IMG/VR virus record: IMGVR_UViG_3300031521_000157
Location: 1 to 40,682 of that record
From: a virus
Reading direction: 5' to 3' (one strand)
Length of the DNA: 40,682 nucleotides
Position numbers and translations under genes: made by a program. Below the pieces are notes generated by a model. That model was not told where the DNA came from, ran no database searches, and was given only the letters and a program-made list of their open reading frames with translations. Numbering within the stretch: position 1 is the first letter of the stretch; the number at the start of each line of letters is the position of its first letter. This document shows positions 12,515 through 33,306 of this stretch, one piece after another.

Positions 12515-12528
12515 TCGATCGGTGAAAT

Positions 12529-12852: not shown

Positions 12853-13141
12853 CCTCCAAGCACTATTGGAGACGTTGCTCGGCTCTGAGAATGTATATTT
12901 TCAACCGCCTCCGACCGTTAGTATGGTATATCCATGTATTGTCTTTGGGTTAGATACCGCTAAAACACAATTTGCCGACAATCTTCCTTATTGTTATGAT
13001 AAGCAATATTCGGTAACCGTCATAGATGCGGATCCGGATAGTCTTATTCCGGATAAAGTTGCGATGTTATCAAAGTGTTCATTTGAAAGACACTTTACCT
13101 CAGACAATCTTAATCACAATCTTTTTCGTCTTTTCTATTAG
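12836..13141 (+). CDS. Neck / tail-terminator-like protein
   Basis: A 101-residue protein starting at ATG 12836 behind CGGAGGTG and overlapping the head closure gene by 17 bases. VSMVYPCIVFGLD, YDKQYSVTVIDADPDSLIPDKV and a C-terminal FRLFY resemble small tail-completion proteins that cap the tail tube next to the connector. Position between head closure and major tail protein supports this; sequence alone would not. Confidence 0.6.
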   Translation: MAPRVNLQALLETLLGSENVYFQPPPTVSMVYPCIVFGLDTAKTQFADNLPYCYDKQYSVTVIDADPDSLIPDKVAMLSKCSFERHFTSDNLNHNLFRLFY

Positions 13142-13150
13142 GAGAAAAAT

Positions 13151-13825
13151 ATGGGAAATAAAATCAATTGGGACAAGACCGGTGAGAAGATTTATGAAAC
13201 CGGCGTTGATCATGGAGTATTGTATGTCCGCAATGCCCTGGGCGCTTACCCGAAGGGTGTAGCCTGGAATGGTTTGACCGGCGTGACCGAGAGTCCTTCC
13301 GGTGCTGAGTCCACACCTTTGTACGCTGACAACATCAAATACCTGAATTTGCAATCTGCGGAATCCTTCGGCGCGACTGTCACGGCCTACACCTACCCTG
13401 ATGAATTCGGTGCCTGCGATGGATCGGCTGAGCCGACCCCCGGCGTCAAACTGGGTCAACAGGCCCGCAGCTCCTTCGGTTTGTGCTATCGCACTGCCAA
13501 GGGTAATGATGTCAAGGGCCAGGACTTTGGATATCTTCTGCACCTTATTTATGGTGCAACGACTGCTCCTTCCGAGAAGGCGTATGGCACCATCAATGAA
13601 AGCCCCGACGCGATCGAGTTCAGTTGGGCTATCTCAACCACACCAGAAGCTGTCGTCGGTTACAAGCCAACTGCCTCTTTGACGGTTGATTCTACAAAGG
13701 TCGCCCCAGAAGATCTGGCCGCTCTCGAGTTAATCCTGTACGGTTCGGACGTCGCTACTCCGGTTGAAGGTCGCTTGCCTCTTCCGGCCGAAGTCATCAC
13801 TCTTCTGACCCCTGCTGGCGGTTAA
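13151..13825 (+). CDS. Major tail protein
   Basis: The 224-residue protein has the tail-tube pattern: an N-terminal GVDHGVLYVRNALGAYPKGVAWNGL, GQQARSSFGLCYRTAKGNDVKG, and a C-terminal beta-rich half that ends with PLPAEVITLLTPAGG. Like the capsid gene it is conspicuously richer in C-ending codons than its neighbours. It is followed at once by a terminator hairpin that should let it be made in excess over the tail chaperone and tape measure genes. Confidence 0.85.
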   Translation: MGNKINWDKTGEKIYETGVDHGVLYVRNALGAYPKGVAWNGLTGVTESPSGAESTPLYADNIKYLNLQSAESFGATVTAYTYPDEFGACDGSAEPTPGVKLGQQARSSFGLCYRTAKGNDVKGQDFGYLLHLIYGATTAPSEKAYGTINESPDAIEFSWAISTTPEAVVGYKPTASLTVDSTKVAPEDLAALELILYGSDVATPVEGRLPLPAEVITLLTPAGG

Positions 13826-13842
13826 GAGAGTCCGAACTACAA

Positions 13843-13880
13843 AAAGGGATCTTATGACATTGTAGGATCCCTTTATCTTT
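13843..13880 (+). terminator. Terminator after the major tail protein gene
   Basis: AAAGGGATC (13843-13851) pairs perfectly with GATCCCTTT (13866-13874) across a 14-base loop and is followed by ATCTTTTCTT. No promoter is visible downstream, so partial read-through must express the tail genes that follow. Confidence 0.75.
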
Positions 13881-13897
13881 TCTTGAAAGGAATAAAA

Positions 13898-14278
13898 ATG
13901 ATCAAAGAAAAAATCACCTACACAGATTACGACGATGTTGAACGCACTGAAACCTTCATGTTTAACATAACCGAAACCGAGGCTGCCACGATGGAACTGT
14001 CTGTCGCCGGTGGTATCAGCGCGAAGATCCAACGGTTGGTCGAGGCTCAAGAACAGGGCGAAATCATCAAGGTTCTTAAGGACTTCATTCTTATGGCCTA
14101 TGGGGTTAAAACTCCAGATGGACGTCGGTTTGAGAAGACTCAAGAACTTCGAGATGCATTCGAACAGAATCCGGCTTTTAGTATCCTCTTCATGAAATTG
14201 GCCACTGATGCCGCGGCTGCTGCCGTTTTCGTAAACGGTCTGGTTGTGAAAAAGGCCTCCCCGCCCCCGCAATCATAA
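13898..14278 (+). CDS. Tail assembly chaperone
   Basis: A 126-residue protein located between the major tail protein and the tape measure, where the chaperone lies in nearly all long-tailed phages. The EKITYTDYDDVERTETFMFNITETEA start and AKIQRLVEAQEQGEIIKVLKDFILMAYG middle match the gpG-type family. The start at ATG 13898 is set by TTGAAAGGAA. No slippery heptamer linking it to the next frame is evident: the next gene is in the same frame behind a stop and has its own ribosome site, so the usual frameshift product is probably absent. Confidence 0.75.
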   Translation: MIKEKITYTDYDDVERTETFMFNITETEAATMELSVAGGISAKIQRLVEAQEQGEIIKVLKDFILMAYGVKTPDGRRFEKTQELRDAFEQNPAFSILFMKLATDAAAAAVFVNGLVVKKASPPPQS

Positions 14279-14308
14279 CTCAAACTATTTGAATAAGGAG
14301 ACCAAACT

Positions 14309-14860
14309 ATGTTAATTATTAATATTCCCGCTAATAATGATCTTTGGGATGAACGAAACGAAATTTTCATCACTACAAAAGAAGTTAAAGCGGTAACATT
14401 AGAACATTCTTTGGTCTCCTTATCAAAATGGGAGAGCAAATGGCATAAACCGTTCTTTACCAAAGGGGAAAAGACAAATATCGAATCTTTAGATTATATT
14501 CGTTGCATGACAATAACTCCCTCTGACATTGATCCACTATGTTACTTGGGTATTCCGTCACATACGATAGACACCATACATAAATACATAGAAGATTCGA
14601 TGACCGCTACAACGTTCTCGAAAGACGAACACAAAGTTACGAACCGTGAAATTGTCACGGCAGAAATTATCTATTATTATATGATTACCTTGAACATTCC
14701 GTTTGAGTGCCAAAAATGGCATCTAAACAGATTGCTAACATTAATTAATGTGTGTAATCTAAAGAACCAAAAACCAAAAGCACTAAGTCAGAGCGAAACA
14801 ATAGCTCGAAACCGAGCATTAAATGCTGAAAGAAAAGCAAGATTAAATACTAAAGGATAA
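14309..14860 (+). CDS. Second tail-chaperone-position protein
   Basis: The 183-residue protein is of a family I recognise from anaerobe siphophages: LSKWESKWHKPFF, TKGEKTNIESLDYIRCMTI, NREIVTAEIIYYYMI and PFECQKWHLNRLLTLINVC. It occupies the position of the second chaperone (gpGT-like) before the tape measure. The highly basic C-terminus (SQSETIARNRALNAERKARL) would suit binding to an acidic partner. Own ribosome site AAGGAG at 14297-14302. Function is inferred from position. Confidence 0.65.
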   Translation: MLIINIPANNDLWDERNEIFITTKEVKAVTLEHSLVSLSKWESKWHKPFFTKGEKTNIESLDYIRCMTITPSDIDPLCYLGIPSHTIDTIHKYIEDSMTATTFSKDEHKVTNREIVTAEIIYYYMITLNIPFECQKWHLNRLLTLINVCNLKNQKPKALSQSETIARNRALNAERKARLNTKG

Positions 14861-14863
14861 ATT

Positions 14864-15241
14864 ATGATCATAATTAAGCAAAAAGGAAATTTTAATAACA
14901 CTGAAAAGTTGCTTAAGAATGCTCAGAATATCCAAGTTAGAAGCATTCTTGAAAAGTATGCTAGACAAGGTGTTTCAGTATTATCGTCTGCAACCCCTGT
15001 TGAAAGTGGTTTAACTTCAAACTCTTGGGATTACGAGATCGATGTTAATAGATCCGGTTATTCCATCTCCTGGACGAACTCCAATATCATAAACGGAGTA
15101 CCAGTTGTTGTACTCTTACAATACGGTCACGCAACAAGAAGTGGTGGTTATGTTCAAGGTAGAGATTTTATAAACCCAGCGATGAAACCCATATTCAACG
15201 CCATTGCTGAGGATCTTTGGAAGGAGGTTAAATCATTATGA
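14864..15241 (+). CDS. HK97 gp10-like tail completion protein
   Basis: A 125-residue protein with the recognisable gp10-family segments ATPVESGLTSNSWDYEI, VVVLLQYGHATRSGGYVQGRDFINPAMKPIF and a C-terminal helix. These proteins link head and tail. The gene is displaced to after the chaperones rather than beside the head closure gene. It overlaps the tape measure start by four bases (ATGA). Confidence 0.75.
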   Translation: MIIIKQKGNFNNTEKLLKNAQNIQVRSILEKYARQGVSVLSSATPVESGLTSNSWDYEIDVNRSGYSISWTNSNIINGVPVVVLLQYGHATRSGGYVQGRDFINPAMKPIFNAIAEDLWKEVKSL

Positions 15242-18200
15242 GCCCAACGGTTGACAAACGATTGGTCGAATTGGGTTTCGACAACAAACAATTTGAAAGC
15301 GGAGTTCAAGATAGTGTCAAAACATTAGACACTTTGAAAAAAGGATTGAACCTCGATGCTGCTGCCGGGAGTTTATCGCGACTATCTACTGCCGGGAATT
15401 CATTTTCTCTCGGTGGAATAGGCGATACGATAGGTGCTGTAACTAGTAATTTCTCAGTTCTTGGTGTTGTCGGATTTACAGTCCTGCAAAACATCACAAA
15501 TTCCGCAATACAAGCTGGGACAGCACTTTGGAATGGTTTAATGGTCGACCCCATCAAAATGGGACTAAGTGAGTATGAGACCCAAATGGGTGCAATTCAA
15601 ACCATCTTGGCAAATACTTCCGCTGACAATACAAATCTCGATCAAGTTAATGCTGCCTTGCTAGAACTGAACAATTACTCTGACAAGACCATATATAACT
15701 TCACAGAGATGGCCCGTAATATCGGTACGTTCACCGCAGCCGGTATTAAGCTCGATACATCTGTATCAGCGATCAAAGGTATTGCTAATCTGGCCGCCGT
15801 GTCAGGTAGTAATGCTCAACAAGCCAGTACAGCCATGTATCAGTTATCTCAAGCAATGGCCTCTGGAACAGTTAAGTTAATGGACTGGAACTCGGTTGTT
15901 AATGCTGGTATGGGTGGTAAGGTATTCCAGACTGCATTGACAAATACGGCTCGAAAACATGGTGTAGCCATTGATGAAATGATTAAGAAAGAAGGATCAT
16001 TCAGAGAGACTTTATCCAAAGGATGGCTTACAACAGCAGTCTTGACCGAGACATTATCAACCTTCACTGGAGATTTAACAGAGGCCCAGTTAAAGGCTAT
16101 GGGTTATACTGAGAAGGAAAGCCAGGCCATTATTGAGCAAGGAAAAATGGCTAATGACGCCGCTACCAAAGTCAAAACTATGTCTCAATTGTGGGACACT
16201 TTGAAAGAAGCGGCTCAATCCGGTTGGGGTCAAAGTTGGCAATTAGTTGTTGGTGACTTTGAAGAGGCTAAAGCTTTAATGACCGAGATCAGCAATGTCG
16301 TTGGTGGTATGATCGGTGCTTATTCTGCCGCTCGCAATTCTATGTTACAAAAGTGGAAAGACAATGGTGGACGAGTAAAGATGATCGACGCTATGCGTAA
16401 TGCATTTGAGGGTGTTGTTCATATAGTAACCCTTTTCAAAGATGCATTTGAAGAGATCTTTCCACCTATTACTGGTCGTCAGTTAGCCGACATCAGTATC
16501 CAACTTGAAGTTTTAAGTCGAAACTTCAAAATGGGGGCAGAGACTAGCGACAAGGTCAAACGCATATTCAAAGGTCTATTCGCCGCTGTTGATATTCTGG
16601 CTCAACCATTTATTGCTTTAGGTAAAGGTGTGGGTCAGTTACTTGGGGTTATTACTCCTGCTGGCGGTGGTCTGTTGGATTTTGCCGCAAATCTTGGTGA
16701 CTACCTTATGAATCTCCGAGATTCTATAAAGTCCAGTGATATATTTGGAAAAGCTGTAACAAACATCGGATTTGTTTTGGGTGGAGCGGTTCTTGCAATA
16801 AAGAATTTCGCTAGTGGTGTTGCTGTTGCATTTTCCACATTCAAAACTAGTCTTATGCAGAATGGGTTGTTCATTGTCATATCCGATAAGATTAAAGAGT
16901 TTGTTCAGAAGATCAAAGACTCTTTTGCTTCTTTCAAGAATATGGACATGTCCGGATTTACTGACTTTGTCAATAAAGTAAAGGAACGTTTTAGTCCACT
17001 CGGTCAGGTTCTTGAGGGAATTGGTACGATCCTTAGCAAATTTGGCGAGGTTATAAAGACTATCTGGACGAAGATCTCTCCTATATTTGGTAAGATCGGC
17101 GACTTCATGGGTACTGTTTTGAGTAAGATCAAGGAGGGTATTCTTGGCGGCCTTGACAAACTTGGTGAAACCATATCTAACATAGATTATAACAAATTCT
17201 TTGACGGATTAAATGCTGGTTTAATGGCTGGACTAATATACGCCATCAACAAGTTTATCAATAAAGGTGCATCGGCTTTTGATGCCCCAAAAGGTATAGT
17301 CGAAACCCTAACGAGTTTTGCAGACAAATACAAAGCAGTTCTTGACGGAATAACTGGTGTATTGAGTGGCGTAAGAGACACACTTAAGACCTATCAAGAT
17401 TCCTTGAAAGCTGATATTCTACAGAAAATTGCCATTGCTATTGGCATTCTAACTGTATCGTTGATTGCTTTGTCCTTGATCGATTCTAAAAAGTTGGCTG
17501 CATCCTTAGGCGCAATGACCGTTATGTTTGCTGATCTCTTTGGCTCAATAACCATATTTGAGAAAGCAAATAAAGACAACACAATGGGCATTCTTACAAA
17601 GACTGTTGTTGGTCTTATTGGTGCGTCTATTGCCATCACTATTCTGTCAGTAGCACTAGCCAAACTAGCGTCGCTTGACTCATATCAGATGATACAAGGT
17701 GTGTTAGGCATAGCGGCTTTAAGTGTAGTTATTGCAGCACTGACAAAGGTCTTATCTGAGAATTCTGGAGAGATCTTGTCCACCTCAATCGGTCTTACCG
17801 TATTTGGTGTTGCGCTTAATGTTATGGCAAGTGCGGTAGAGAGACTTGGTAAGATGAAATTTAACGATCTTCTCAAGGGTCTCGGTGGTGTATTTGTCCT
17901 GTGTACCGAATTATCATTGCTTATGAAATTGAAAAACGTCGACAAGTTAGGTTTTGACGTCGGTGTTGGTCTATTAGCGATGAGTGTATCTGTCGGTATA
18001 TTAGCGATGAGTGTTTCGGCTTTTGGAAATATGCCACTTGAAAAGCTAACACAAGGTATTGGTGCACTTGGTGCGGTTATGATAGAACTGGGTGTATTTC
18101 TTCGCATTGCTCAAGGAAATAGTTTGCTCATATCCACATCGATTGGTCTAGTAATTGTTGCTGGATCAATGTTGTTATTTGCCAAATCTATCGAACAGTT

Positions 18201-19839
18201 AGGTAATTTGTCATTGGACCAAATAGCTAAGGGCTTAGTTACAATGGCTGGAGCATTGGGTATTATTGGTGTTGCTATGGCCGGAATGCCCGTAAATATG
18301 CTGTTAAACAGTGTAGCTCTTGGTGTGGTTGCTGGTTCGATATTACTATTGGCGAATGCATTAACGGTGATGGGTAATATGAGTGTCGACCAAATGAAAG
18401 TTAGCCTAGGAACGTTAGCCATATCCTTAGGTTTACTGGCTTTCGGTTTATCCTTAATGGTCGAAGCTCTTCCTGGTGCCGCCGCAATGTTGGTTGTATC
18501 AATAGCCCTTGCCATATTTGCTCCTGCACTAAAAGTTCTTGGGGATATGCCATTAGCTAATATTGGTGCCGCATTACTAGCAATTGCCGGTATATTTGTA
18601 ATACTTGGTGTTGCAGGTTTAGTGCTAACTCCGGTATTACCAGTCTTATTTGGTCTAGCCGCAGTAATTGGTTTATTAGGTCTTGCCGCATTAGCTGCTG
18701 GTATTGGTGTTGCAGCGTTTGCTGTAGGTTTAACCGCCTTATCAATAGCTGGTGCTGCTGGTACGGCTGCAATGATTGTACTAGTGACGGCATTGATCAA
18801 ACTTCTGCCTATGATGGGTGAAGAGATCGGAAAAGCAGTCATATCCTTTGCTACAACAATTAAAGACGGTGCTCCAGCGATCAAGTCTGCTATAACTACT
18901 GTGTTGTTAAATATGATACAGACGGTTGTAGATACGGTTCCAAAATTTGTTGAAGCACTTGGTATTCTTCTGGTTGCTTTGTTCAACACTCTTGCAAATG
19001 CTGTTCCAAAAATGGTCGATGCTGGTTTGCAACTGATCGTTGGTTTGCTTAAGGGTATCGCAAAGAATATCGGTCAGATTATTAAAGCTGGTATTGACAT
19101 AGTTGTTAATTTCCTTAAAGGCATATCCTCAAAGATTGGAGATGTAACGGAGGCCGCATTTGAATTGGTTATTGCCTTCACCAATGGTCTTAGTAATAGT
19201 ATTGACGCCCATTCCCAAGAATTGACAGATGCCGGTATACGTTTGGCTGAGTCAATAATAAAGGCTATGGCCTACGGAATATCTCAAGGAGTTGGTGCTA
19301 TTACCGAGGCTTTGTGGAATGTCATCCAACAGGCTATCGCTAACTTTTTGAATCCGCCAAAGGATGGAGACAACAACGACGAAGCCGAGAAAGCCGGTGC
19401 AAAAGTAGTTAACGGTCTATCGTCCGGCTTGTTAAACGCTGCGTCTTTAATTCAAAGTGCTGCATCAACACTTGGCACGGAAGCACTTGATAGTTTCACG
19501 GGTGCTATGTCTAATATTGGGTCTATATTATTGGATAGTATTGACACTAATCCAACAATACGTCCGGTTCTGGATTTGACTGACTTGCTTACTGGAAGTG
19601 ACCAGATTGACCGGTTATTTTCCAAACGATCGTTTGCTCTGTCTGTGCCTATGGATAACCTTCCAAATATGGCAAGTAGTTCACAGAATGTAAATACGTC
19701 TCAAAACCAAACCGGATCAGGAAGTACCTCGCTCCAACTTATACAAAATAATTACTCTCCAAAAGCTTTGTCTACCATTGAAATTTACAGACAGACAAAG
19801 AACCAAATTTCTTTATTGAAAGGATTAACCAACAAATGA
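15238..19839 (+). CDS. Tail tape measure protein
   Basis: The 1533-residue product has the tape measure core near the N-terminus (LSEYETQMGAIQTILANTS, FTAAGIKLDTSVSAIKGIAN, STAMYQLSQAMASGTVKLMD). Between about residues 745 and 1150 it carries seven tandem units of 56-65 residues, each with a [LF]G[NDK]M-x-[LFV]-type turn followed by two hydrophobic helices. Length sets the tail length, expected to be around 200 nm by the usual residue-to-helix relation. No peptidase, transglycosylase or NlpC/P60 motif is visible. The hydrophobic repeats may insert in the host membrane during DNA ejection. It overlaps both neighbours by four bases. Confidence 0.9.
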   Translation: MSPTVDKRLVELGFDNKQFESGVQDSVKTLDTLKKGLNLDAAAGSLSRLSTAGNSFSLGGIGDTIGAVTSNFSVLGVVGFTVLQNITNSAIQAGTALWNGLMVDPIKMGLSEYETQMGAIQTILANTSADNTNLDQVNAALLELNNYSDKTIYNFTEMARNIGTFTAAGIKLDTSVSAIKGIANLAAVSGSNAQQASTAMYQLSQAMASGTVKLMDWNSVVNAGMGGKVFQTALTNTARKHGVAIDEMIKKEGSFRETLSKGWLTTAVLTETLSTFTGDLTEAQLKAMGYTEKESQAIIEQGKMANDAATKVKTMSQLWDTLKEAAQSGWGQSWQLVVGDFEEAKALMTEISNVVGGMIGAYSAARNSMLQKWKDNGGRVKMIDAMRNAFEGVVHIVTLFKDAFEEIFPPITGRQLADISIQLEVLSRNFKMGAETSDKVKRIFKGLFAAVDILAQPFIALGKGVGQLLGVITPAGGGLLDFAANLGDYLMNLRDSIKSSDIFGKAVTNIGFVLGGAVLAIKNFASGVAVAFSTFKTSLMQNGLFIVISDKIKEFVQKIKDSFASFKNMDMSGFTDFVNKVKERFSPLGQVLEGIGTILSKFGEVIKTIWTKISPIFGKIGDFMGTVLSKIKEGILGGLDKLGETISNIDYNKFFDGLNAGLMAGLIYAINKFINKGASAFDAPKGIVETLTSFADKYKAVLDGITGVLSGVRDTLKTYQDSLKADILQKIAIAIGILTVSLIALSLIDSKKLAASLGAMTVMFADLFGSITIFEKANKDNTMGILTKTVVGLIGASIAITILSVALAKLASLDSYQMIQGVLGIAALSVVIAALTKVLSENSGEILSTSIGLTVFGVALNVMASAVERLGKMKFNDLLKGLGGVFVLCTELSLLMKLKNVDKLGFDVGVGLLAMSVSVGILAMSVSAFGNMPLEKLTQGIGALGAVMIELGVFLRIAQGNSLLISTSIGLVIVAGSMLLFAKSIEQLGNLSLDQIAKGLVTMAGALGIIGVAMAGMPVNMLLNSVALGVVAGSILLLANALTVMGNMSVDQMKVSLGTLAISLGLLAFGLSLMVEALPGAAAMLVVSIALAIFAPALKVLGDMPLANIGAALLAIAGIFVILGVAGLVLTPVLPVLFGLAAVIGLLGLAALAAGIGVAAFAVGLTALSIAGAAGTAAMIVLVTALIKLLPMMGEEIGKAVISFATTIKDGAPAIKSAITTVLLNMIQTVVDTVPKFVEALGILLVALFNTLANAVPKMVDAGLQLIVGLLKGIAKNIGQIIKAGIDIVVNFLKGISSKIGDVTEAAFELVIAFTNGLSNSIDAHSQELTDAGIRLAESIIKAMAYGISQGVGAITEALWNVIQQAIANFLNPPKDGDNNDEAEKAGAKVVNGLSSGLLNAASLIQSAASTLGTEALDSFTGAMSNIGSILLDSIDTNPTIRPVLDLTDLLTGSDQIDRLFSKRSFALSVPMDNLPNMASSSQNVNTSQNQTGSGSTSLQLIQNNYSPKALSTIEIYRQTKNQISLLKGLTNK

Positions 19840-20741
19840 TTAACTCGCTAACAGTGACAAATCATTTGGACGAATCCTGCGAAATCGATCTGAGGAATCC
19901 TGCGAAATCGGGGTTCCTCATTTCTAAAATAGAAGGGTTAGGTCCAACAAAAGCTGCAATAAACATGTCTGATATTTCGAACATGGACGGTAATACGTTT
20001 AACTCAGCTCGAGTGGGAACACGTAATATTGTCATAACTTTAAGCTATGCTGACGATATATCTGTGGAAGATAGTCGCCACAAGTCCTATAAATATTTCC
20101 CCGTTAAGAAGCAAATAAAGTTAAAATTCGAGACAGACACAAGATCCTGCGAAATATATGGATATGTTGAATCAAATGAGGTAAGTATATTCAGCAGTAA
20201 AGAGACAGCAGTAATATCAGTGCTGTGTCCCAATCCATATTTCTATTCGCTTACCAAGAACTTAACAGATTTCTCCAGTGTGTTCCCAGAATTTGAATTT
20301 CCATTTTCGAATGAGTCACTTACTGAACGTATGATGGTTATAAGTTCGGTAACTCTTGCTACCGAGAAATCGATATATTACTCCGGCGACTCAGAAGTTG
20401 GAATCTCGATTTTGATTCATGCTGGTGGAGTAGTGTCAAATCTCAGGATTGTAAACAAAACAACTAGAGAAACAATGACCATTGATGACACGAAATTGAT
20501 AGCTTTTACGGGATCTGGAATTAAGGCCGGAGATGATATTTTAATCTCCACAATCCGTGGAAACAAATCTATAACACTGATGCGAGATGGTCTGTCGATC
20601 AATATTCTCAATTGTTTAGACAAGAACACAAAATGGTTCCAATTAAATCAAGGAGATAATGTCTTTGCATATACCGCAGATTCGGGAATTCTCAATTTCC
20701 AATTTGAGATAATGAACGACGTTCTCTACGGAGGAATCTAA
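19836..20741 (+). CDS. Distal tail protein (Dit)
   Basis: A 301-residue protein placed directly after the tape measure, with the Dit-like N-terminal layout: a short beta segment, then GFLISKIEGLGPTKAAINM, DGNTFNSARVGTRNIVITLSY, and HKSYKYFPVKKQIKLKFETDTR, CEIYGYVESNEVSIFSSKE. The C-terminal part is a second beta domain. It forms the hub at the tail tip on which the Tal-like and receptor-binding proteins sit. Start ATG overlaps the tape measure stop. Confidence 0.8.
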   Translation: MINSLTVTNHLDESCEIDLRNPAKSGFLISKIEGLGPTKAAINMSDISNMDGNTFNSARVGTRNIVITLSYADDISVEDSRHKSYKYFPVKKQIKLKFETDTRSCEIYGYVESNEVSIFSSKETAVISVLCPNPYFYSLTKNLTDFSSVFPEFEFPFSNESLTERMMVISSVTLATEKSIYYSGDSEVGISILIHAGGVVSNLRIVNKTTRETMTIDDTKLIAFTGSGIKAGDDILISTIRGNKSITLMRDGLSINILNCLDKNTKWFQLNQGDNVFAYTADSGILNFQFEIMNDVLYGGI

Positions 20742-20742
20742 C

Positions 20743-21825
20743 ATGGAATTACGAGTGTTTGATCCGGAGATGGATTTGGTAGCCATTATCGATAGTTTCA
20801 TATCCTTGATATGGACTGATCGATATTGTGGATTTGGCGATTTTGAACTACACACGGCGGTGTCTTACGAAGCACTAACATATCTTAAATTGGATAATTA
20901 TGTGTTGACAGACGCCTCAGATACAATGATGATCATCGAGACTTGGAACATCACAACCGATCCAGATAATGGAAACGTTCTGATTGTTACTGGCAGATCG
21001 TTAGAATCCGTATTAGATCGCCGTATAGTCATGAGTAGAATCTATGAGACTGGCAGTCTTCAAAATGGCATTTACAATATTTTGAATGACACCACGATCA
21101 GCCCGATTGATCCGTCGAGAAAAATTGTTGAACTGGATTTCGCTTTGTCGAGCGACCAACTTGTTACTGATTTAACAATGGACTCATATTTTTACGGCGA
21201 GAATGTCTATGAAATCATAGAAGCATATTGCTCAGCGAACAACATCGGATTCAAAGTAGAATATGTTGATACTGGTGATAAAGTAAAAAGCATGTTGTTC
21301 AAGTTGTATGCTGGTGTCGATCGGTCATATTCTCAATCATCAAATAGTTTTGTGGTATTCTCTCCAAATTTTGAAAACATTAAGAATACTGCATATCTTG
21401 AAAGTAAAAAGGCATTAAAGACTGTTACAGATGTTGTCGGTGTTCAGAATGATGCTGGTGGTTATTTTGAGCAGATTGTCGAATCCGATGATACTATAAC
21501 CGGTCTTAATCGCCGAGAGTTATATAGTGATGCCGGGGATATCTTAAAGACCGATCCAGATGGCCTGCCTATATCTGATGCAGATTATAATGTTCTCTTG
21601 CAACAAAGGGGAATATTGAATCTGAACGATAATCGGTATATAATCACTTTCGATGGCCAAATCGAAATGGGTATTCTTTATGAATATCGTAAAGATTTCT
21701 TTATCGGTGACATTGTGCAGTTGGCCAATGAATATGGCATTGAAACACCCGTACGGATTACTGAAATGATCCAATCGGACGGACCTACCGGCCACACTAT
21801 ATATCCCACTTTTAAGTCAATCTAG
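20743..21825 (+). CDS. Tail-tip Tal-like protein (ReqiPepy6 gp37-like)
   Basis: A 360-residue protein beginning MELRVFDPEMDLVAIIDSF and continuing SLIWTDRYCGFGDFELHT, IIETWNITTDPDNGN and VTGRSLESVLDRRIV, the hallmark of the gp37-like tail-tip family. It lacks the C-terminal endopeptidase domains that many Tal proteins have, so no wall-degrading role is visible. The C-terminus (FFIGDIVQLANEYGIETPVRITEMI) is a typical hub beta-barrel end. Begins one base after the Dit stop. Confidence 0.8.
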   Translation: MELRVFDPEMDLVAIIDSFISLIWTDRYCGFGDFELHTAVSYEALTYLKLDNYVLTDASDTMMIIETWNITTDPDNGNVLIVTGRSLESVLDRRIVMSRIYETGSLQNGIYNILNDTTISPIDPSRKIVELDFALSSDQLVTDLTMDSYFYGENVYEIIEAYCSANNIGFKVEYVDTGDKVKSMLFKLYAGVDRSYSQSSNSFVVFSPNFENIKNTAYLESKKALKTVTDVVGVQNDAGGYFEQIVESDDTITGLNRRELYSDAGDILKTDPDGLPISDADYNVLLQQRGILNLNDNRYIITFDGQIEMGILYEYRKDFFIGDIVQLANEYGIETPVRITEMIQSDGPTGHTIYPTFKSI

Positions 21826-21838
21826 AAAGGAGTTATAC

Positions 21839-23338
21839 ATGGGTTTCACTTACGGATTCTACAATTCTTTGAATGGCGATAGAAAATATAACGCCATTGA
21901 ACTATCCTCTATTTTTGACGGAATTATCAAGGATGGGGTGTTCGCCACGGTTGGTAATGCTTTTCAAGTTGTTCCCGGCTCGGGAATGAGTATCGCTGTC
22001 AAATCTGGTCGTGCATGGTTCAATCATACCTGGTCAAATCTGGATAATGACTTGGTGTTATCATTAACTCAGGCCGACTTGATTCTTCCTCGAATTGACT
22101 CTGTTATCATTGAGATCAATTCCACCGAAACAGTCAGGGCAAACTCGATCAAGATTCTTACTGGCATTCCTGCCACGGTTCCTGTTGCTCCCACATTGAT
22201 CAATACAACCAACGTACATCAATACGCTCTGGCTCATATCTCGGTGCCTGTTGGATTGACTATACCTGCCGTCGCGAACATCACATATTTAGTCGGTAAG
22301 AGTCTATGTCCGTTTATCACCGGGATTCTTGAGACTATCGATACAACGATTTTGGTTGCTCAATGGATGAATCAGTTTAATACCTGGTTCTCAAATTTGC
22401 AAAATCAACTTGACTCTAATCAAGCCGCCAATCTTCAAAACCAAATTGATCATCTTCCGCCAAAAGCCGTCACCGCAGAAATTGATATTGCCGACAAGAC
22501 ATTGGCAATCGACACCAAATATGTGACACCAAAAGCATTACTTGGAAGTCGCATGATTCCTGTGTTAAAACCGGTTAATATTGGTGATATCCCGGTCTCA
22601 ACTTTTGACTATGATGATCCAAGTAGTCTAAAATGGGCGCTATCGACCATTGGTGGGCGACTAGCCGATGTTAAAATCCTTACCTTTGCTGGAAGTTTGC
22701 TAGACTACATTGGAATGTCCACTGGGTGTAGATATTTGTTGATTGAGATGCTGGGTGCTGGCGGCGGTGGTGGTGGGGCGGCCGTGTCAAGTGCTACTTC
22801 CTCAGTTGGCTCGGGAGGTGGCGCAGGAGAATATACCTGGCATCTGCTGAAATTAAATTCTAATCAAGTTTACAACAAGGTCACATTTGCATATAATATT
22901 GGTTTACCTGGTTATGGCGGTCAAGGTGCAGTTGTTGGTACTGCCGGTGGTGACACCATCTTCCAATTCAAAAACGTATACGATGGCGGACAAATTGCTC
23001 TAGCTAAAGGCGGTGCTGTTGGCGCAACCTTAGCGGCTGCTGCGGCCGTTGGTGTTGTTCCTGGTGCTCAGGGTGGTTTAGCATCTGCATCTCTTGGTTT
23101 GGTAAAAACCGATGGTTCTGACGGCGGATATGGTCTTCGTCTGAGCGCTTCTGTCGGTATGTCTGGTGCTGGAGCTGCTGGTCCATTTGGCGGATTAACT
23201 GCTGGACGCAATACTATTGGTGCTGGTGCAGATGCGTCTGTTCCTGGTGGTGGTGGTGCTGGAGCATGGACTAATGGCGCAGTTCAAAATGGTGGTAATG
23301 GTGCTCCTGGTTGGATCCGCGTAAGCGAATATATTTAA
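21839..23338 (+). CDS. Receptor-binding tail protein with glycine-rich C-terminal domain
   Basis: The 499-residue protein has an N-terminal base-plate attachment domain (GFTYGFYNSLNGDRKYNAIE, with FDGIIKDGVFATVG), common in anaerobe siphophages, a short coiled-coil/linker (residues about 180-210, QNQLDSNQAANLQNQIDH), and from about residue 300 a glycine-rich domain (MLGAGGGGGGAAV to GGGGAGAWTNGA) ending in PGWIRVSEYI. Such Gly-rich tips form sandwiches of polyglycine helices and bind receptors. The low-complexity DNA here is prone to variation and recombination, which fits host-range change. Confidence 0.8.
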   Translation: MGFTYGFYNSLNGDRKYNAIELSSIFDGIIKDGVFATVGNAFQVVPGSGMSIAVKSGRAWFNHTWSNLDNDLVLSLTQADLILPRIDSVIIEINSTETVRANSIKILTGIPATVPVAPTLINTTNVHQYALAHISVPVGLTIPAVANITYLVGKSLCPFITGILETIDTTILVAQWMNQFNTWFSNLQNQLDSNQAANLQNQIDHLPPKAVTAEIDIADKTLAIDTKYVTPKALLGSRMIPVLKPVNIGDIPVSTFDYDDPSSLKWALSTIGGRLADVKILTFAGSLLDYIGMSTGCRYLLIEMLGAGGGGGGAAVSSATSSVGSGGGAGEYTWHLLKLNSNQVYNKVTFAYNIGLPGYGGQGAVVGTAGGDTIFQFKNVYDGGQIALAKGGAVGATLAAAAAVGVVPGAQGGLASASLGLVKTDGSDGGYGLRLSASVGMSGAGAAGPFGGLTAGRNTIGAGADASVPGGGGAGAWTNGAVQNGGNGAPGWIRVSEYI

Positions 23339-24661: not shown

Positions 24662-24690
24662 TTCCTCGCGTCAATTACACCTCCTATAAT
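24662..24690 (+). promoter_or_regulatory. Promoter, CTCGC/TATAAT family
   Basis: TTCCTC (24662-24667), spacer GCGTCAATTACACCTCC (17 bases), TATAAT (24685-24690). Drives the small membrane protein at 24720, whose transcript ends at the terminator at 24952. Confidence 0.85.
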
Positions 24691-24951: not shown

Positions 24952-24988
24952 AAAGAGAGATATCATAGAAATATGGTATTCTCTTTTT
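24952..24988 (+). terminator. GAAA-capped intrinsic terminator
   Basis: AAAGAGA (24952-24958) pairs with TCTCTTT (24980-24986), continued by TATCATA/TATGGTA around a GAAA tetraloop (24968-24971), then TTTTT. It is nearly identical to the terminator at 26922, with one T-A to C-G covariation in the upper stem. Its T-run overlaps the next promoter's first hexamer. Confidence 0.9.
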
Positions 24989-25015
24989 CCTCGCAGGAAT
25001 TACACATCATATAAT
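24987..25015 (+). promoter_or_regulatory. Promoter for structured RNA 1
   Basis: TTCCTC (24987-24992), spacer GCAGGAATTACACATCA (17 bases), perfect TATAAT (25010-25015), then GAGAAGTAA. It points directly into a folded non-coding segment. Confidence 0.85.
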
Positions 25016-25132
25016 GAGAAGTAATCCCGTGAGGGATGGTAAGATGCGAATGCGGAGGATGAGATATCCTTCCTACTACACAAAGAAGAACAGTGTTAAA
25101 TTAATATATTTCGTCAGTATATTAAGCTTCTC
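25016..25132 (+). ncRNA. Candidate structured RNA 1
   Basis: Three hairpins follow the promoter: ATCCC/GGGAT with a GTGA (GNRA-type) tetraloop (25024-25037); GGAGGAT/ATCCTTCC with one bulge (25054-25073); and TTAATATA/TATATTAA (25101-25108/25118-25125). GAGAAG (25016-25021) could pair with CTTCTC (25127-25132), enclosing all three, but those first bases lie at or just before the expected start of transcription, so this last pairing is uncertain. No ribosome site or credible gene lies here. Confidence 0.6.
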
Positions 25133-25174
25133 ATATAAATTTTCTAAAAATTCCCCGGGAGGAAAAATCGAAAA

Positions 25175-25203
25175 TAACTCGCAAGAGTTACACACCATAT
25201 AAT
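25175..25203 (+). promoter_or_regulatory. Promoter for structured RNA 2
   Basis: TAACTC (25175-25180), spacer GCAAGAGTTACACACCA (17 bases), TATAAT (25198-25203), then GAAAAGATAAG. Confidence 0.8.
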
Positions 25204-25206
25204 GAA

Positions 25207-25294
25207 AAGATAAGAATTAAAACGCGATATAAAGGTCAACAGTCAAAAACTGTTAAGGGTCCGAATCCCAGATATTGGTGGCGCTTATCTTTTT
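25207..25294 (+). ncRNA. Candidate structured RNA 2 (about 85 nt, partly tRNA-like)
   Basis: AAGATAAG (25207-25214) pairs with CTTATCTT (25284-25291) and runs straight into a T-run, so the closing stem doubles as the terminator of a discrete short RNA. Inside, CGATAT (25225-25230) pairs with ATATTG (25272-25277) and encloses two hairpins: AACAG/CTGTT with a seven-base loop (25238-25254) and GGG/CCC with the seven-base loop TCCGAAT (25257-25269). The last resembles a tRNA T-loop (TTCRANY with one change) and the first an anticodon arm, but there is no D-arm, the T-stem is short and no CCA or good acceptor exists. It is not a normal tRNA; a tRNA-like regulator or mimic is possible. Confidence 0.65.
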
Positions 25295-25321
25295 GCTCGC
25301 GTCAAAAACACCGGCTATAAT
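25293..25321 (+). promoter_or_regulatory. Promoter for structured RNA 3
   Basis: TTGCTC (25293-25298) begins inside the T-run of RNA 2. It is followed by spacer GCGTCAAAAACACCGGC (17 bases) and TATAAT (25316-25321), then GAGAAGTAATACTTAG. Confidence 0.85.
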
Positions 25322-25410
25322 GAGAAGTAATACTTAGACAGTGCTACCTATATTAGAGGCAGACGTTCGCACATATAGTGCAACACTAAGTATTATTTCT
25401 CCTATATTTT
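25322..25410 (+). ncRNA. Candidate structured RNA 3 / leader of the gene at 25434
   Basis: GAGAAGTAATACTTAG (25322-25337) pairs with CTAAGTATTATTTCTC (25386-25401): 16 bp with one G.U pair. Inside, CTATAT (25348-25353) pairs with ATATAG (25373-25378) with TGC/GCA flanks (25342-25344/25380-25382), making a rod. CTATATTTTTT follows, so the element could terminate transcription or act as an attenuator before the gene whose ribosome site is at 25420. The first five or six bases of the 5' arm may lie upstream of the actual transcription start, leaving at least 10 bp of the closing stem in the RNA. Confidence 0.65.
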
Positions 25411-25433
25411 TTCTCACTCTTGAAAGGAGTAAA

Positions 25434-25754
25434 ATGTACGACAAACTTGTTTTTGACATCACCCCAGAAAATAAGATCTATGTCTGTATGACCTTTTCCC
25501 AAGACATGTACAATCAACTTGGACAGAAAAGCTTACTCGCTATGACTTTCGATTTCTTAGCTCTAGAGCCACGAACGGTCACTGCAACAATTCAGGACAA
25601 GAATCGTAAGGTAACCATATCCTGGCTACTACCAATCAGTTTGGCAGAGTTCCTAACTGAGAAGTTCGCCCAGACTCCGAACGTGGATATTTACGTTCTG
25701 AATCGATATCTGGAAGTAGTGTTGAGCATTTATCGAGCAATGGCACGGAGTTAA
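25434..25754 (+). CDS. Hypothetical protein, 106 aa, behind structured RNA 3
   Basis: The start at ATG 25434 is fixed by CTTGAAAGGAG at 25420-25429; in-frame codons upstream fall within the folded RNA and are not credible coding. The protein is soluble: KLVFDITPENKIYVCMTF, a central TVTATIQDKNRKVTISWLLP beta-type stretch, and a C-terminal helix. It resembles no family I know. If RNA 3 is an attenuator, this gene is its direct target. A 31-residue reading frame follows two bases after its stop. Confidence 0.7.
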   Translation: MYDKLVFDITPENKIYVCMTFSQDMYNQLGQKSLLAMTFDFLALEPRTVTATIQDKNRKVTISWLLPISLAEFLTEKFAQTPNVDIYVLNRYLEVVLSIYRAMARS

Positions 25755-25756
25755 AA

Positions 25757-25852
25757 ATGAAACACAACTTCATGGTTACCTGGAAATATCACGGTCTTAA
25801 AGCAGCATTAAAATGGCTTTTCTGGGCCATTGTTTTTAACGACAAATCGTAA
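25757..25852 (+). CDS. Tiny basic, aromatic peptide, 31 aa
   Basis: ATG 25757 follows CGGAG by seven bases and opens MKHNFMVTWKYHGLKAALKW, then LFWAIVFNDKS. It is amphipathic at the N-terminus with a hydrophobic WLFWAIVF stretch, typical of small membrane-active peptides. It fills the gap between two clear genes with proper spacing. Reality is likely but unproven; function unknown. Confidence 0.5.
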   Translation: MKHNFMVTWKYHGLKAALKWLFWAIVFNDKS

Positions 25853-25871
25853 GTCTCTTGAAAGGAGCAAT

Positions 25872-26645
25872 ATGAATACCGAAATTGTAAGGAAAGTCGC
25901 ATATCAAGTCGGAGGAAAGTTGTCGAAAAATTCTCCAAGTATTCTCACCGCAATGGCTGTTGGAGGGTTGATCACAACTGTGATTCTGGCTGTACGGGCA
26001 ACTCCTAAAGCCATTCAGAAGTGTGATGACGAAGAAGTATATTTTGAAAAAGAAACAGGTGTACTTCGCCGTCTGACAGTAATCGAAATGGCCCGTCTGA
26101 CCTGGAAAGAATATATCCCGACAGTGGTCATGGCTGGCGCTACGATCGGCTGTATCATTGGTGCAAACTCGATCAGTGCTCGCCGAGCAGCGGTTCTGGC
26201 CAGCGCATATTCTTTGGCTGAAACAACCATGAAGGAATATCAGGCCAAAGTGGTTGAGACTATGGGCAAGAACAAAGAGCAGAAAGTTCAGGACGAGATT
26301 GCCCAGGATAAACTCAATGCCAATCCGATCGAGAAAAACACGGTTATTATTACTGGCAAGGGTGACATGCTTTGCTACGAGTCATATTCTGGTCGGTACT
26401 TCCAGAGTGACATTGAGACTCTGCGCCGGATTGAGAATATGCTCAACAAGAAACTTCTTACCGAGATGTACATTACCCTCAATGACTTCTATTCAGAAAT
26501 TGGCCTCGAGCAAGTAGCAATGGGTGGTGAGATCGGTTGGGAGGTCAATCATGAGATGATTGATCTGATGTATAGCGCCAAACTCACCAGTGACAATCGA
26601 CCATGCATCGTGGTACATCTGCACGCTTCGCCAAGAGATCTTTAA
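25872..26645 (+). CDS. DUF6353-like phage membrane protein, copy A
   Basis: The 257-residue product has an N-terminal helix after KLSKNSPSILTAMAVGGLITTVILAVRATPKA, a second one (YIPTVVMAGATIGCIIGA, about 81-98), then SARRAAVLASAYSLAETTMKEYQAKVVETMGKNKEQ and a soluble C-terminal domain with DMLCYESYSGRYFQS. The same plan is repeated in the protein at 32377 (copy B), so the two are paralogues about 6 kb apart. I associate the family with DUF6353, known from phages and not characterised. The start at 25872 follows CTTGAAAGGAG. A pore, an envelope-stress or a superinfection role would all be guesses. Confidence 0.7.
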   Translation: MNTEIVRKVAYQVGGKLSKNSPSILTAMAVGGLITTVILAVRATPKAIQKCDDEEVYFEKETGVLRRLTVIEMARLTWKEYIPTVVMAGATIGCIIGANSISARRAAVLASAYSLAETTMKEYQAKVVETMGKNKEQKVQDEIAQDKLNANPIEKNTVIITGKGDMLCYESYSGRYFQSDIETLRRIENMLNKKLLTEMYITLNDFYSEIGLEQVAMGGEIGWEVNHEMIDLMYSAKLTSDNRPCIVVHLHASPRDL

Positions 26646-27251: not shown

Positions 27252-27618
27252 ATGATCACCGACAAACAAAGGCTCAACGCCATCGACATTCGTGCCAATA
27301 TTCGCAATATTCGCGAAAAATACGAAGAACTTAAGACCAATACAAAAAATAAAAACCTACAAATTCAATGTCAACATTGGATCAATGAGTGCGACGACAT
27401 CGAGTATTGGTGTTTAAGTATGATTGCTCAGTATCAATTTGACCACGCACGATCGGCATTAGATATTCCTGTACCAGTATTAATTTGACCACGCACGATC
27501 GGCATTAGATATTCCTGTACCAGTAGCCGAGATCAAACCGCAGAATATCGTTGTCAAGATATGGATCCAAATCGTGAACGAGATCATTGCCAGAGTGAAA
27601 CTTATTCTGGGAAAATAG
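27252..27618 (+). pseudogene. Small helical-protein gene truncated by a 46-bp tandem duplication
   Basis: The frame opens at ATG 27252 and now stops at 27486-27488 (78 codons). A near-exact duplication with period 46 bases (44-base copies at 27436-27479 and 27482-27525) shifts the frame. Removing one period joins ...ALDIPVPV to AEIKPQNIVVKIWIQIVNE and on to a TAG at 27616, giving a 106-residue protein with a C-terminal helix. Both parts have coherent codon use, so the longer product is the ancestral one. The current product may still work or the duplication may be an assembly error. Confidence 0.7.
27436..27525 (+). repeat. 46-bp-period tandem duplication
   Basis: A 44-base segment starting AATTTGACCACGCACG occurs at 27436-27479 and again at 27482-27525 with no differences; the two bases between the copies are TT. 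The absence of divergence points to a recent event. Confidence 0.95.
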
Positions 27619-30805: not shown

Positions 30806-30992
30806 AAAAGAGTGTTATTCCTATTTGGAAGATAACGAGTTCGTTCACGACTTGACAACTTTGTTCAATGATGACGTTGCCATAGCATTTGTATTCATTG
30901 CCGATGATTCTTCTGTTGGAACATATTTGAATTCCAACAATGCACCGATTGTCTACTCAGACACCGATGGGCTCATGATGGTTAAGTATTAA
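30798..30992 (+). CDS. Small tandem paralogue B, 64 aa
   Basis: Second member of the pair, with conserved NE[FY]V, SV-x3-LN, P[IV]-x-Y-x-D-x-DG-x2-MVK positions. It is more acidic than copy A and lacks its basic tail (KRPENG). The spacing of conserved residues is unchanged, so both are under constraint. Function unknown. Confidence 0.7.
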   Translation: MDKKECYSYLEDNEFVHDLTTLFNDDVAIAFVFIADDSSVGTYLNSNNAPIVYSDTDGLMMVKY

Positions 30993-30999
30993 GGACACC

Positions 31000-31623
31000 A
31001 TGCCTGAAATCAATAAAGACGAATTTCCCAACAACTCTCGTAAGGCCAGAGAGCAACAGAAAGACGAGACTCCACGAGTGAGTAAGGTTATTCACGGGTC
31101 GGTAATCAAAAAGAAGACCTCGTTCGGCCACAGTATCCTGCAAGCGTTCACTGGCGACGAGACTAAATCGGTGGTGGATTACGTGATTTGGGATGTTCTT
31201 ATCCCAGCAGCCAAAAATACCATATCTGAGATGGTCAGCACCGGTATTGAGATGATGCTCTTCGGTGAAGCAAAAGGCTCACGTAGCCGGGACAAGAATA
31301 AGTCCTATGTGAGTTATGGCAGTTACTTCAAGAAAGACAGTGACCGTCAGCCTGAGCGTCATGAACGAGTATCTCGCAACAAATACAACTTTGACGAGTT
31401 CATTCTCTCGACCCGTGGAGATGCGCAGGAGGTCCTCGATGGGCTTCTTAATCAGATCGACGACTATGACGTGGCCACTGTCGCAGACCTGTTCGATATG
31501 ATTGACGTGCCTGGCGAGTTCACTGACCGAAAATATGGCTGGGACAATCTCAGTCGCGCTACCGTCGTCCGTGTCCGAGATGGATATATTCTGGATCTAC
31601 CAAAACCGCAACCTTTGGAGTGA
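31000..31623 (+). CDS. Conserved phage protein with one YGW domain, 207 aa
   Basis: The N-terminal half is basic (PRVSKVIHGSVIKKKTSFGH) and holds VVDYVIWDVLIPAAKNTISE and MVSTGIEMMLFGEA, a helix-rich pattern found in many anaerobe siphophages. The C-terminal part (about 138-203: AQEVLDGLLNQIDDYDVATV, ADLFDMIDVPGEFTDRKYGW, VVRVRDGYILDLPKP) is a domain that occurs twice more in the next gene. Codons are relatively GC-rich. I cannot assign a function; the wide conservation suggests a core rather than accessory role. Confidence 0.75.
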   Translation: MPEINKDEFPNNSRKAREQQKDETPRVSKVIHGSVIKKKTSFGHSILQAFTGDETKSVVDYVIWDVLIPAAKNTISEMVSTGIEMMLFGEAKGSRSRDKNKSYVSYGSYFKKDSDRQPERHERVSRNKYNFDEFILSTRGDAQEVLDGLLNQIDDYDVATVADLFDMIDVPGEFTDRKYGWDNLSRATVVRVRDGYILDLPKPQPLE

Positions 31624-31624
31624 T

Positions 31625-32380
31625 ATGTCAAAACTCTCTGAGTTAGTAAAAAAAGATATTGACGAACGAGAATACCTGGGTTACAGAAAACACGGTATTT
31701 TGGTGGGCACTAAGCCAAATCCGTTATGGGATGCCTATCAACGGGCACTTGACCTGGCTGTTGGTCTTCGTGAGGATATTCTTGAACAGGAGACCAAAAA
31801 AGCTGATGATACCAACCCATACACTAACTCGCCAATGATTTTGGTCTTTCGAACGCCATTAAGCCGAGCTGAAATGATCCACATGATAGAAGATCGGATC
31901 TTACGATTTGGTTGGTGTCGTGTATATGACGTGGCAGCAAGATTCCAGCCTAACGAATCAGATGATAACTCCAAAAAATATGGTTGGGATAAAGAAAGTG
32001 AGATTCAAACATCTCAACCAGCATCTGATAGTTACCATCTTATCCTGGCAGTCCCTAAACTCATTACTCTAAAAGAAACAAAAATAGAGGAACCAACCTA
32101 TATGATCGGCAGTGTATTTGAACGTCTCACGTTCAAAGACCCTATCGGCATAAGCCTTGTAATGCGACAAGCCAACAATATGATTGAAAAGAATGGTTGG
32201 TGTTCGGTTGCTCAACTTATGAATTTCTGTGGAGTACCAGGTTATGATATCAAACAGTTGGATCATGACTATGGCTGGATCTTTGAGTCGGGATTTCTAA
32301 AAGCTATAACAAATACCGATGCTGGTTGTAAAATGGTCCTGACTCAGCCAGTAAAACTAAATAAGGAAAATGAAAAATGA
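31625..32380 (+). CDS. Protein with two divergent YGW domains, 251 aa
   Basis: After a helical N-terminus (ELVKKDIDEREYLGYRKH, residues 4-24 approx.), residues about 81-148 (MIHMIEDRILRFGWCRVYDV to KKYGWDKE to YHLILAVPK) and about 172-246 (LVMRQANNMIEKNGWCSVAQ to DHDYGWIFESG to CKMVLTQPVKL) repeat the C-terminal domain of the preceding gene, with a GWC[RS]V core added. The start follows the previous stop by one base, without a clear ribosome site of its own, implying re-initiation. Function unknown. Confidence 0.7.
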   Translation: MSKLSELVKKDIDEREYLGYRKHGILVGTKPNPLWDAYQRALDLAVGLREDILEQETKKADDTNPYTNSPMILVFRTPLSRAEMIHMIEDRILRFGWCRVYDVAARFQPNESDDNSKKYGWDKESEIQTSQPASDSYHLILAVPKLITLKETKIEEPTYMIGSVFERLTFKDPIGISLVMRQANNMIEKNGWCSVAQLMNFCGVPGYDIKQLDHDYGWIFESGFLKAITNTDAGCKMVLTQPVKLNKENEK

Positions 32381-33306
32381 TGGATATCAGCAAAGCACAA
32401 AGTATTATCGTCCGGACCGCTGGTCGCGGAGGTCTTATCCTGCAAAAGCACAGCCCAGAACTTCTGATGAGTCTCGGCGTTGTTGGCGTTGTCGCGAGCA
32501 CCGTCCTGGCCTGCCGGGCAACGTTGAAGGTGGAGGCGATCAAGAAGAAACACAATTACCATATTTTGGACATTATGGATATGCAAAATAAAAACACACA
32601 AACATACAATGAGGCATATACCGCAGATGATACAAAGAAAGACACCGCGATCCTCTTCGCCCAAACCGGCCTGGAATTTGTCAAGCTCTACGGCCCGGCT
32701 GTAACACTCGGTCTTGCCTCACTCGCCGCAATTCTGGGATCACAAGGCATCCTACGTCAGCGCAACGTGGCTCTCGTGGCCGCTTACAAACTGATGGAAG
32801 AAGGCTTTGCCAGTTATCGCAAGCGTGTCGTCGATGAATTGGGTGTTGAGACGGATTATCTGTATGCCAACGGCCTGCACCAAGAAATTGTGACGGACAA
32901 GATCGTCGGTGAAGACGGAAAGAAACTCACGGTCAAGAAAGTTGTTATGACGACCGACCCGAACCATAAGAATGTCTACGCCAAAGTCTTTGAAGAAGGG
33001 AATCCTAACTGGAACCCAAATATGGATCTCAATCTCTTCTTCTTGCAGAGTTCACAGACCTGGGCCAACAACAAACTCCAGTCACAGGGTCATCTCTTCC
33101 TCAACGAAGTATATGATACGTTGGGCTTTCAACGTACACCTGCCGGAGCGATCACTGGTTGGACTCTTAAAAACTCCAAATTCTCAGACGGTGATGTGGA
33201 CTTCCGTATGCATGATCCGAACACTGGTCGAGACTTTGCTGATGGATACAGGAATGCAATCCGCTTGGACTTCAACGTGCAAGGACTGATGTACGAGGAT
33301 ATTTAA
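32377..33306 (+). CDS. DUF6353-like phage membrane protein, copy B
   Basis: The 309-residue paralogue of the protein at 25872: GGLILQKHSPELLMSLGVVG with VASTVLACRATLKVEAI, a second helical membrane segment (LYGPAVTLGLASLAAILGS), then ILRQRNVALVAAYKLMEEGF, YRKRVVDELGVETD and a soluble C-terminal domain ending in NVQGLMYEDI. Compared with copy A it has an insertion around residues 195-225 and better-preserved family landmarks, so it is likely the original gene. GC-rich codons. Two consecutive ATGs occur at 32377 and 32380; AAGGA (32363-32367) fits either. Confidence 0.75.
   Translation: MMDISKAQSIIVRTAGRGGLILQKHSPELLMSLGVVGVVASTVLACRATLKVEAIKKKHNYHILDIMDMQNKNTQTYNEAYTADDTKKDTAILFAQTGLEFVKLYGPAVTLGLASLAAILGSQGILRQRNVALVAAYKLMEEGFASYRKRVVDELGVETDYLYANGLHQEIVTDKIVGEDGKKLTVKKVVMTTDPNHKNVYAKVFEEGNPNWNPNMDLNLFFLQSSQTWANNKLQSQGHLFLNEVYDTLGFQRTPAGAITGWTLKNSKFSDGDVDFRMHDPNTGRDFADGYRNAIRLDFNVQGLMYEDI

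Follow-up and report, generated by a model that had tools for sequence, protein, structure and literature searches.

The stable RNAs C and D of phage T4 are small phage RNAs of unknown function that lie beside tRNA-like genes and are processed out of a tRNA operon, and the pRNA of phi29 is a phage-encoded folded small RNA that forms a single conserved part of packaging. Phage tRNAs withstand or replace cleaved host tRNAs when tRNA-cleaving defences act (van den Berg 2023, PMC10264068; Azam 2024, PMC11555353), and in one of these studies the anticodon was required (PMC11555353). RNA anti-CRISPRs (Racrs) are solitary small phage RNAs that mimic CRISPR repeats to disable defence (PMC10651486).

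The locus analysed here and its sister loci in other phages resemble the anti-defence phage tRNAs in that they hold small promoter-driven phage RNAs, some of which, in the sister loci, retain the D-arm, T-arm, and acceptor stem. However, the anti-defence tRNAs are functional tRNAs whose anticodon loop is altered, whereas the sister-locus RNAs carry a tetraloop instead, do not encode CCA, and have an acceptor stem of 10–12 bp; the first RNA of our locus (RNA1) is not a tRNA. The likeness to Racrs would lie in a small phage RNA mimicking a host RNA, but the model imitated by a Racr is the CRISPR repeat. A tRNA mimic with neither anticodon nor CCA would be unlike phage tRNAs and unlike Racrs. Unlike T4 RNAs C and D, with which the comparison is by description and not by sequence, each RNA of our locus has its own predicted promoter and terminator, and unlike phi29 pRNA the array comprises several unrelated folds that vary among relatives and have no Rfam match.

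The window, that is, the whole stretch of DNA analysed, is an entire IMG/VR virus record of 40.7 kb. It derives from a siphovirus whose kin are Arthrobacter, Gordonia, and Streptomyces phages, the tape-measure protein showing 36–39% identity to its counterparts in these phages. Other products include terminase, portal, and DNA polymerase, as well as a single-chain, YonO-like RNA polymerase. A 10.8-kb contig (L118, IMGVR_UViG_3300031722_000347) is identical to window positions 12401–23158 and probably represents the same phage in a second assembly. The first-pass annotation had proposed a tandem array of three promoter-driven, individually folded non-coding RNAs in a gap between genes; this gap has structural and lysis genes on one side and the early module on the other. 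The features are as follows.

1504–4218, + strand: YonO-like RNA polymerase (phrog_4291), which may read the promoters
24991–25015, + strand: promoter 1, TCGC-N5-TTACAC-N4-TATAAT (motif alignment)
25016–25145, + strand: RNA1, type-A pseudoknotted small RNA (25016–25132) plus terminator-like T-run (fold, model match)
25016–25021 / 25127–25132, + strand: RNA1 closing stem P1, GAGAAG/CTTCTC
25024–25037, + strand: RNA1 5' hairpin, ATCCC-GTGA-GGGAT (folding)
25037–25078, + strand: RNA1 P2 (25037–25041 / 25074–25078), enclosing the joining strand and P3 (fold, model)
25046–25050, + strand: RNA1 pseudoknot 5' strand GCGAA, pairing with TTCGT at 25110–25114 (covaries in the family)
25054–25060 / 25066–25073, + strand: RNA1 hairpin P3, inside P2
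25101–25125, + strand: RNA1 hairpin P4, with the pseudoknot 3' strand in its loop (fold, covariation)
25179–25203, + strand: promoter 2 (motif alignment)
25204–25294, + strand: RNA2 (fold, closing stem against shuffles)
25205–25214 / 25284–25293, + strand: RNA2 closing stem
25238–25254, + strand: RNA2 capped hairpin (folding)
25257–25269, + strand: RNA2 T-arm-like hairpin, GGG-TCCGAAT-CCC (folding)
25297–25321, + strand: promoter 3, AAACAC replacing TTACAC (motif alignment)
25322–25412, + strand: RNA3, 16-bp rod with small internal hairpins, then T-run (fold, closing stem)
25322–25337 / 25386–25401, + strand: RNA3 closing stem, 16 bp with one G.U
25434–25754, + strand: 106-aa gene after the array, separate from the RNAs; a homologue search found no family
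25830–26645, + strand: DUF6353 protein (PF19880, phrog_2152; family assignment)

The DUF6353 gene forms a paralogous membrane-protein pair with a second gene at 32377–33306, and the family is present in 245 phage records. At 27429–27525 a 46-bp unit is directly repeated in tandem (2.1 copies at 98% identity).

TATAAT boxes of one promoter type had been placed at 25010, 25198, and 25316, and these positions were confirmed. Alignment extended the motif to TCGC-N5-TTACAC-N4-TATAATGA. The three copies do precede the three RNAs, but the promoter type is not specific to RNAs: further copies at 24665 and 26656 stand before ribosome-binding sites and ordinary genes. Moreover, the motif was found in 15 of 15 related records (phages of Arthrobacter, Gordonia, Streptomyces, Rhodococcus, Microbacterium, Curtobacterium, and Lactococcus, the last with one weak match, and phages from gut sources), nearly always on the coding strand and against 0–2 control matches per record. 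This distribution, established computationally, points to a general promoter of the phage group; the TCGC/TTACAC/TATAAT motif is a predicted phage-wide promoter that drives protein genes too. The sites do not fit a sigma-70-type promoter, for which a TTGACA -35 box 16–18 nt upstream of TATAAT and a start 6–8 nt downstream would be expected: a sigma-70 scan did not list them, and the closing stems begin at the base after TATAAT.

The three RNAs had been described as unrelated in sequence but sharing a plan in which the ends pair with each other, and this plan holds. Closure begins with the G immediately 3' of TATAAT; stems scoring as well arose in 29, 0, and 0 of 1000 dinucleotide shuffles for RNA1, RNA2, and RNA3, respectively, so that the RNA1 stem taken alone is borderline (GAGAAG/CTTCTC together with its T-run was matched by 11/1000). 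A promoter scan of 2.9 million viral contigs retrieved 33 stretches, many of which show the promoter, a non-coding insert of 50–170 nt, a 3' strand complementary to its first bases, and a T-run. Many phages carry one or more such RNAs, whose number and type vary between phages. One such promoter-driven RNA, in Arthrobacter phage Paella (L065, 742–905), holds three tandem GTGAAAAAGATCGC(T/A)CTGACGATCAC hairpins within an 18-bp closing stem.

RNA1 folds at -32.8 kcal/mol (z -3.6), which none of 200 shuffles equalled. The three hairpins first noted in it include a GTGA hairpin that is indeed present, but the structure also comprises P1, the P2/P3 arm, an extra arm, P4, and a pseudoknot. A hairpin at the place of this 5' hairpin also occurs in loci L079, L087, L094, L095, and L169–L172. 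The layout we term type A consists of a 5-bp P2, a joining strand starting 9 nt past the P2 start, P3, and a P4 with a loop complementary to the joining strand. RNA1 has this layout, with P2 TGGTA/TACTA, the pair GCGAA/TTCGT, and the spacing of the family, and its closing stem follows directly after a TATAATG promoter and is followed by a T-run. A P1-free covariance model (R2), built from 17 divergent cores without the window, placed the RNA1 core at 25037–25124 with 38.3 bits and an E of 9e-7 in a search of the 40.7-kb window, the next best place having an E of 0.5. A model of the short Arthrobacter subfamily alone (R1) missed RNA1, which the broader R2 finds.

The first-pass annotation had looked to compensatory changes in relatives as a check, and for RNA1 the outcome was strongly favourable. 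Thirteen elements from Arthrobacter phages and contigs form a near-gapless alignment with a P1–P4 structure and a pseudoknot joining ACGAA before P3 to UUCGU in the P4 loop; 97.5% of its cells are paired, 15 of 28 pairs show two-sided change (0/500 shuffles), and pairing falls to 30–50% when the partner strand is slid. The 17 divergent cores, with the window excluded, are 89.4% paired, with two-sided change at 19 of 22 pairs. Both sets are free of the bias that affects the 31 distinct cores with the window included (91.8% paired, 19/22 two-sided, 31–44% when slid), an alignment that was fitted to the model and so leans towards it. Across the family the pseudoknot pairs occur as GC, UA, and CG. 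Because the patterns that retrieved many relatives included the promoter, and in the case of type A also GACACKAA, the search itself accounts for part of the conservation of these letters; RNA1 of the window carries GATGCGAA and was not retrieved through that pattern. The covarying, pseudoknotted RNA1 family thus almost certainly exists, as judged from these alignments.

The type-A family was detected by BLAST in 55 Arthrobacter phage records, by the model in Rhodococcus phage ReqiPepy6, Arthrobacter phage Paella, and two putative Gordonia phage records, and also in many IMG/VR contigs. R2 finds no type-A RNA in some relatives that share the promoter and the polymerase, and bacterial and archaeal genome contigs gave only three matches, in unrelated organisms, which we took as chance. 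In Arthrobacter Gordonvirus the RNA elements are immediately followed by a DUF6353 homologue, and in named phages of this group, Teacup among them, such units occupy an annotated gap just upstream of a DUF6353 gene. The type-A place in Teacup is at about 30970–31054 of record NC_073326; according to the paper on the Teacup genome there is no tRNA, and RNA genes are not mentioned (PMC5679793). Rfam (15) gave no match above the gathering score in the window and only chance-level matches at permissive thresholds; on the sister loci tRNA was the only family matched. The type-A family appears to be undescribed, with no Rfam relative and no report found in a partial literature search. A further type-A-like subfamily (GATACGAATGTAGG ... 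GCAGTTCGACACTCGC), missed by R2, occurs in L020 (6019), L108 (5778, - strand), L123 (9933), and L167 (12323).

RNA2 and RNA3 are each known from a single sequence. RNA3, described initially as a 16-bp closed rod with a G.U pair, folds as such at -27.7 kcal/mol (z -5.6; 0/200 shuffles as good). Folding of RNA2 likewise returned the closed junction that had been proposed, at a modest -19.6 kcal/mol (z -2.3; 4/200 shuffles as good). A BLAST search of 1.33 Mb of fetched loci gave nothing convincing for either RNA, and R2 gave no significant match at either place in the window. The idea of a dedicated phage small-RNA locus is borne out for RNA1 by conserved, covarying relatives that related phages carry in comparable locations, and for RNA2 and RNA3 at the level of architecture: common promoter, closed ends, and folding better than shuffles. 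RNA2 was rejected as a tRNA, since it falls below the Rfam gathering threshold for RF00005, receives no ARAGORN call, lacks a D-arm, and has in its other hairpin a 5-nt loop and not a 7-nt anticodon loop; its T-like hairpin has T-loop letters, yet a 3-bp stem against the 5 bp of a tRNA T-arm. RNA2 may be a distant version of the anticodon-less tRNA-like RNAs described below.

A search with the promoter and a T-arm uncovered further promoter-driven units in sister loci, many of them cloverleaves in which D-arm and T-arm are kept and the anticodon stem is capped by 3–5 nt (GCAA, ACAA, GUAA, UUCG, UAUC, or UUAC), often a GNRA or UUCG cap. ARAGORN labels these cloverleaves tRNA-???, and three folded examples are clean cloverleaves with tetraloops. 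Hits without a normal anticodon made up 7/10 of the promoter-driven group against 2/23 of the others (Fisher p 8e-4), one of these two (L110) being itself promoter-driven. In the cultured Rhodococcus phage ReqiPepy6, an element annotated 'tRNA-OTHER' (41206–41278) has a GCAA tetraloop in place of its anticodon loop and is followed by a type-A RNA at 41348–41428, forming a tandem pair. This cloverleaf corresponds to 1351–1436 of L153, and L096–L112 and L122 hold further members. Two tRNA-like copies with odd anticodon arms lie under hypothetical-protein annotations in Lactococcus phage P092 (L113, 8707–8790 and 9095–9180). Mini elements of about 55–62 nt, built from an acceptor-like stem, a GCACATTGNGGGGC segment, and a full T-arm, with the anticodon arm absent, occur in L073 (1157–1218), L074 (1152–1213), L005 (about 3980–4040), and L114 (5763, - strand). 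Outside the loci fetched through the T-arm, the excess of T-arms was not significant (1/69 in a filtered set that omits the T-arm elements L005, L047, L073, and L074), and a general excess is not claimed. Several sister-locus elements exceed the RF00005 threshold, whereas none of the three window RNAs reaches it; the tRNA-like theme is strong in the sister loci and weak in the window. The tRNA-like members vary on a type of RNA that is already known.

Of 92 collected elements, 82 have a closing stem whose first base is the G following TATAAT, in a scan that allowed three offsets only, and in 14 elements picked by the P1-free model the best stem starts between -3 and +2. If the stem is real, transcripts would therefore start at or before this G, unlike a sigma-70 start. 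Of 29 carrier records, 26 encode a YonO-like polymerase, the other three being two short contigs and one 70.6-kb gut-phage record. The promoter of YonO itself is unknown (PMC5467207), and in SPbeta, the source of the YonO name, the motif was absent from the yonK/yonO region. For this reason the link between promoter and enzyme is kept as a hypothesis, in which the YonO-like polymerase is a candidate reader of the shared promoter.

We propose that three independent non-coding transcription units are stacked in the gap and that each would use the phage's own promoter to produce a compact RNA of about 80–130 nt starting at the G after TATAAT, with a closing stem joining the 5' and 3' ends beside a T-run terminator. 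The type-A plan comprises P1, an optional 5' hairpin, the P2/P3 arm, an optional extra arm, and a P4 loop pseudoknotted with the strand before P3; sister loci draw on the same toolkit, notably with cloverleaf tRNA-like RNAs in which D- and T-arms are intact and a tetraloop replaces the anticodon loop. These stable RNAs may act in trans, imitating or occupying host RNA-binding factors in infection, and tRNA-handling or tRNA-attacking proteins would be the first candidate targets. The decoy or mimic reading fits best because the sister loci hold anticodon-less tRNA-like RNAs, and stable trans-acting imitation is what the paired ends, the separate promoters, the varying number of RNAs, and a tRNA mimicry that lacks decoding ability point to. 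Taken whole, the model (three independent units, a type-A family, and trans-acting mimics or decoys) stands close to an even prospect but somewhat short of it. Its functional part, mimicry perhaps directed against host tRNA-handling or defence proteins, is more tentative, possible rather than probable.

Riboregulation, in which exposed loops or joining strands would pair with host or phage mRNAs and control their translation or decay, is rather unlikely, even though bacterial sRNAs are typically small and diverse and have independent promoters and terminators: the conserved single-stranded letters of type A are used within the molecule, in the covarying pseudoknot, the sequestered ends leave few free seed regions, and an Hfq-like 3' end is not evident. 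Somewhat less likely still is binding to the machinery of transcription, lysis, or virion assembly (as a 6S-like, scaffold, or packaging RNA) instead of to defence or tRNA-handling proteins. The position of the array between structural/lysis genes and the early module, and the presence of one or more RNAs in many phages, would suit such a role; however, the number and type of RNAs vary, the model finds no match in some relatives that share promoter and polymerase, and Rfam gives no 6S, tmRNA, or pRNA match. A core role in replication or packaging is therefore unlikely, and the packaged structural RNA suggested earlier is not supported, as the RNA complement differs among relatives and Rfam returns no pRNA.

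The units could also be cis elements, namely insulators, attenuators, or leaders of downstream genes with no function as free RNA. We consider this improbable: every unit does end in a stem and T-run upstream of a gene, and the same promoter family drives protein genes with short leaders, but every unit comes with a promoter and a terminator of its own, further promoters separate the tandem units, and the covariation of the pseudoknot core goes far beyond the needs of a terminator, for which reason simple terminators were set aside. Finally, decaying tRNA genes or relics kept by chance are strongly disfavoured, since, although some elements of the sister loci can be recognised as tRNAs whose anticodon arm is damaged, their anticodon stems are intact beneath stable tetraloop caps, D-arm and T-arm have been retained, the promoters stay close to consensus, and compensatory change in the type-A family is strong.

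On the trans-acting mimic reading, phages with a YonO-like polymerase may carry a modular arsenal of stacked RNAs with closed ends and separate transcription, among them the pseudoknotted family and the anticodon-less tRNA mimics, that neutralises host tRNA-dependent or tRNA-cleaving machinery and diversifies in an arms race, a proposal we hold marginally more loosely than the mimic function itself. Dozens of laboratory phages with sequenced genomes hold the type-A RNA, either without annotation or wrongly annotated as hypothetical proteins, so it is testable at once, and the anticodon-less cloverleaves allow the non-decoding roles of phage tRNA-like genes to be addressed directly by experiment. 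The shared promoter is a candidate recognition site for YonO-family polymerases. If the proposal is true, these phages would use a counter-defence strategy built from RNA instead of protein.
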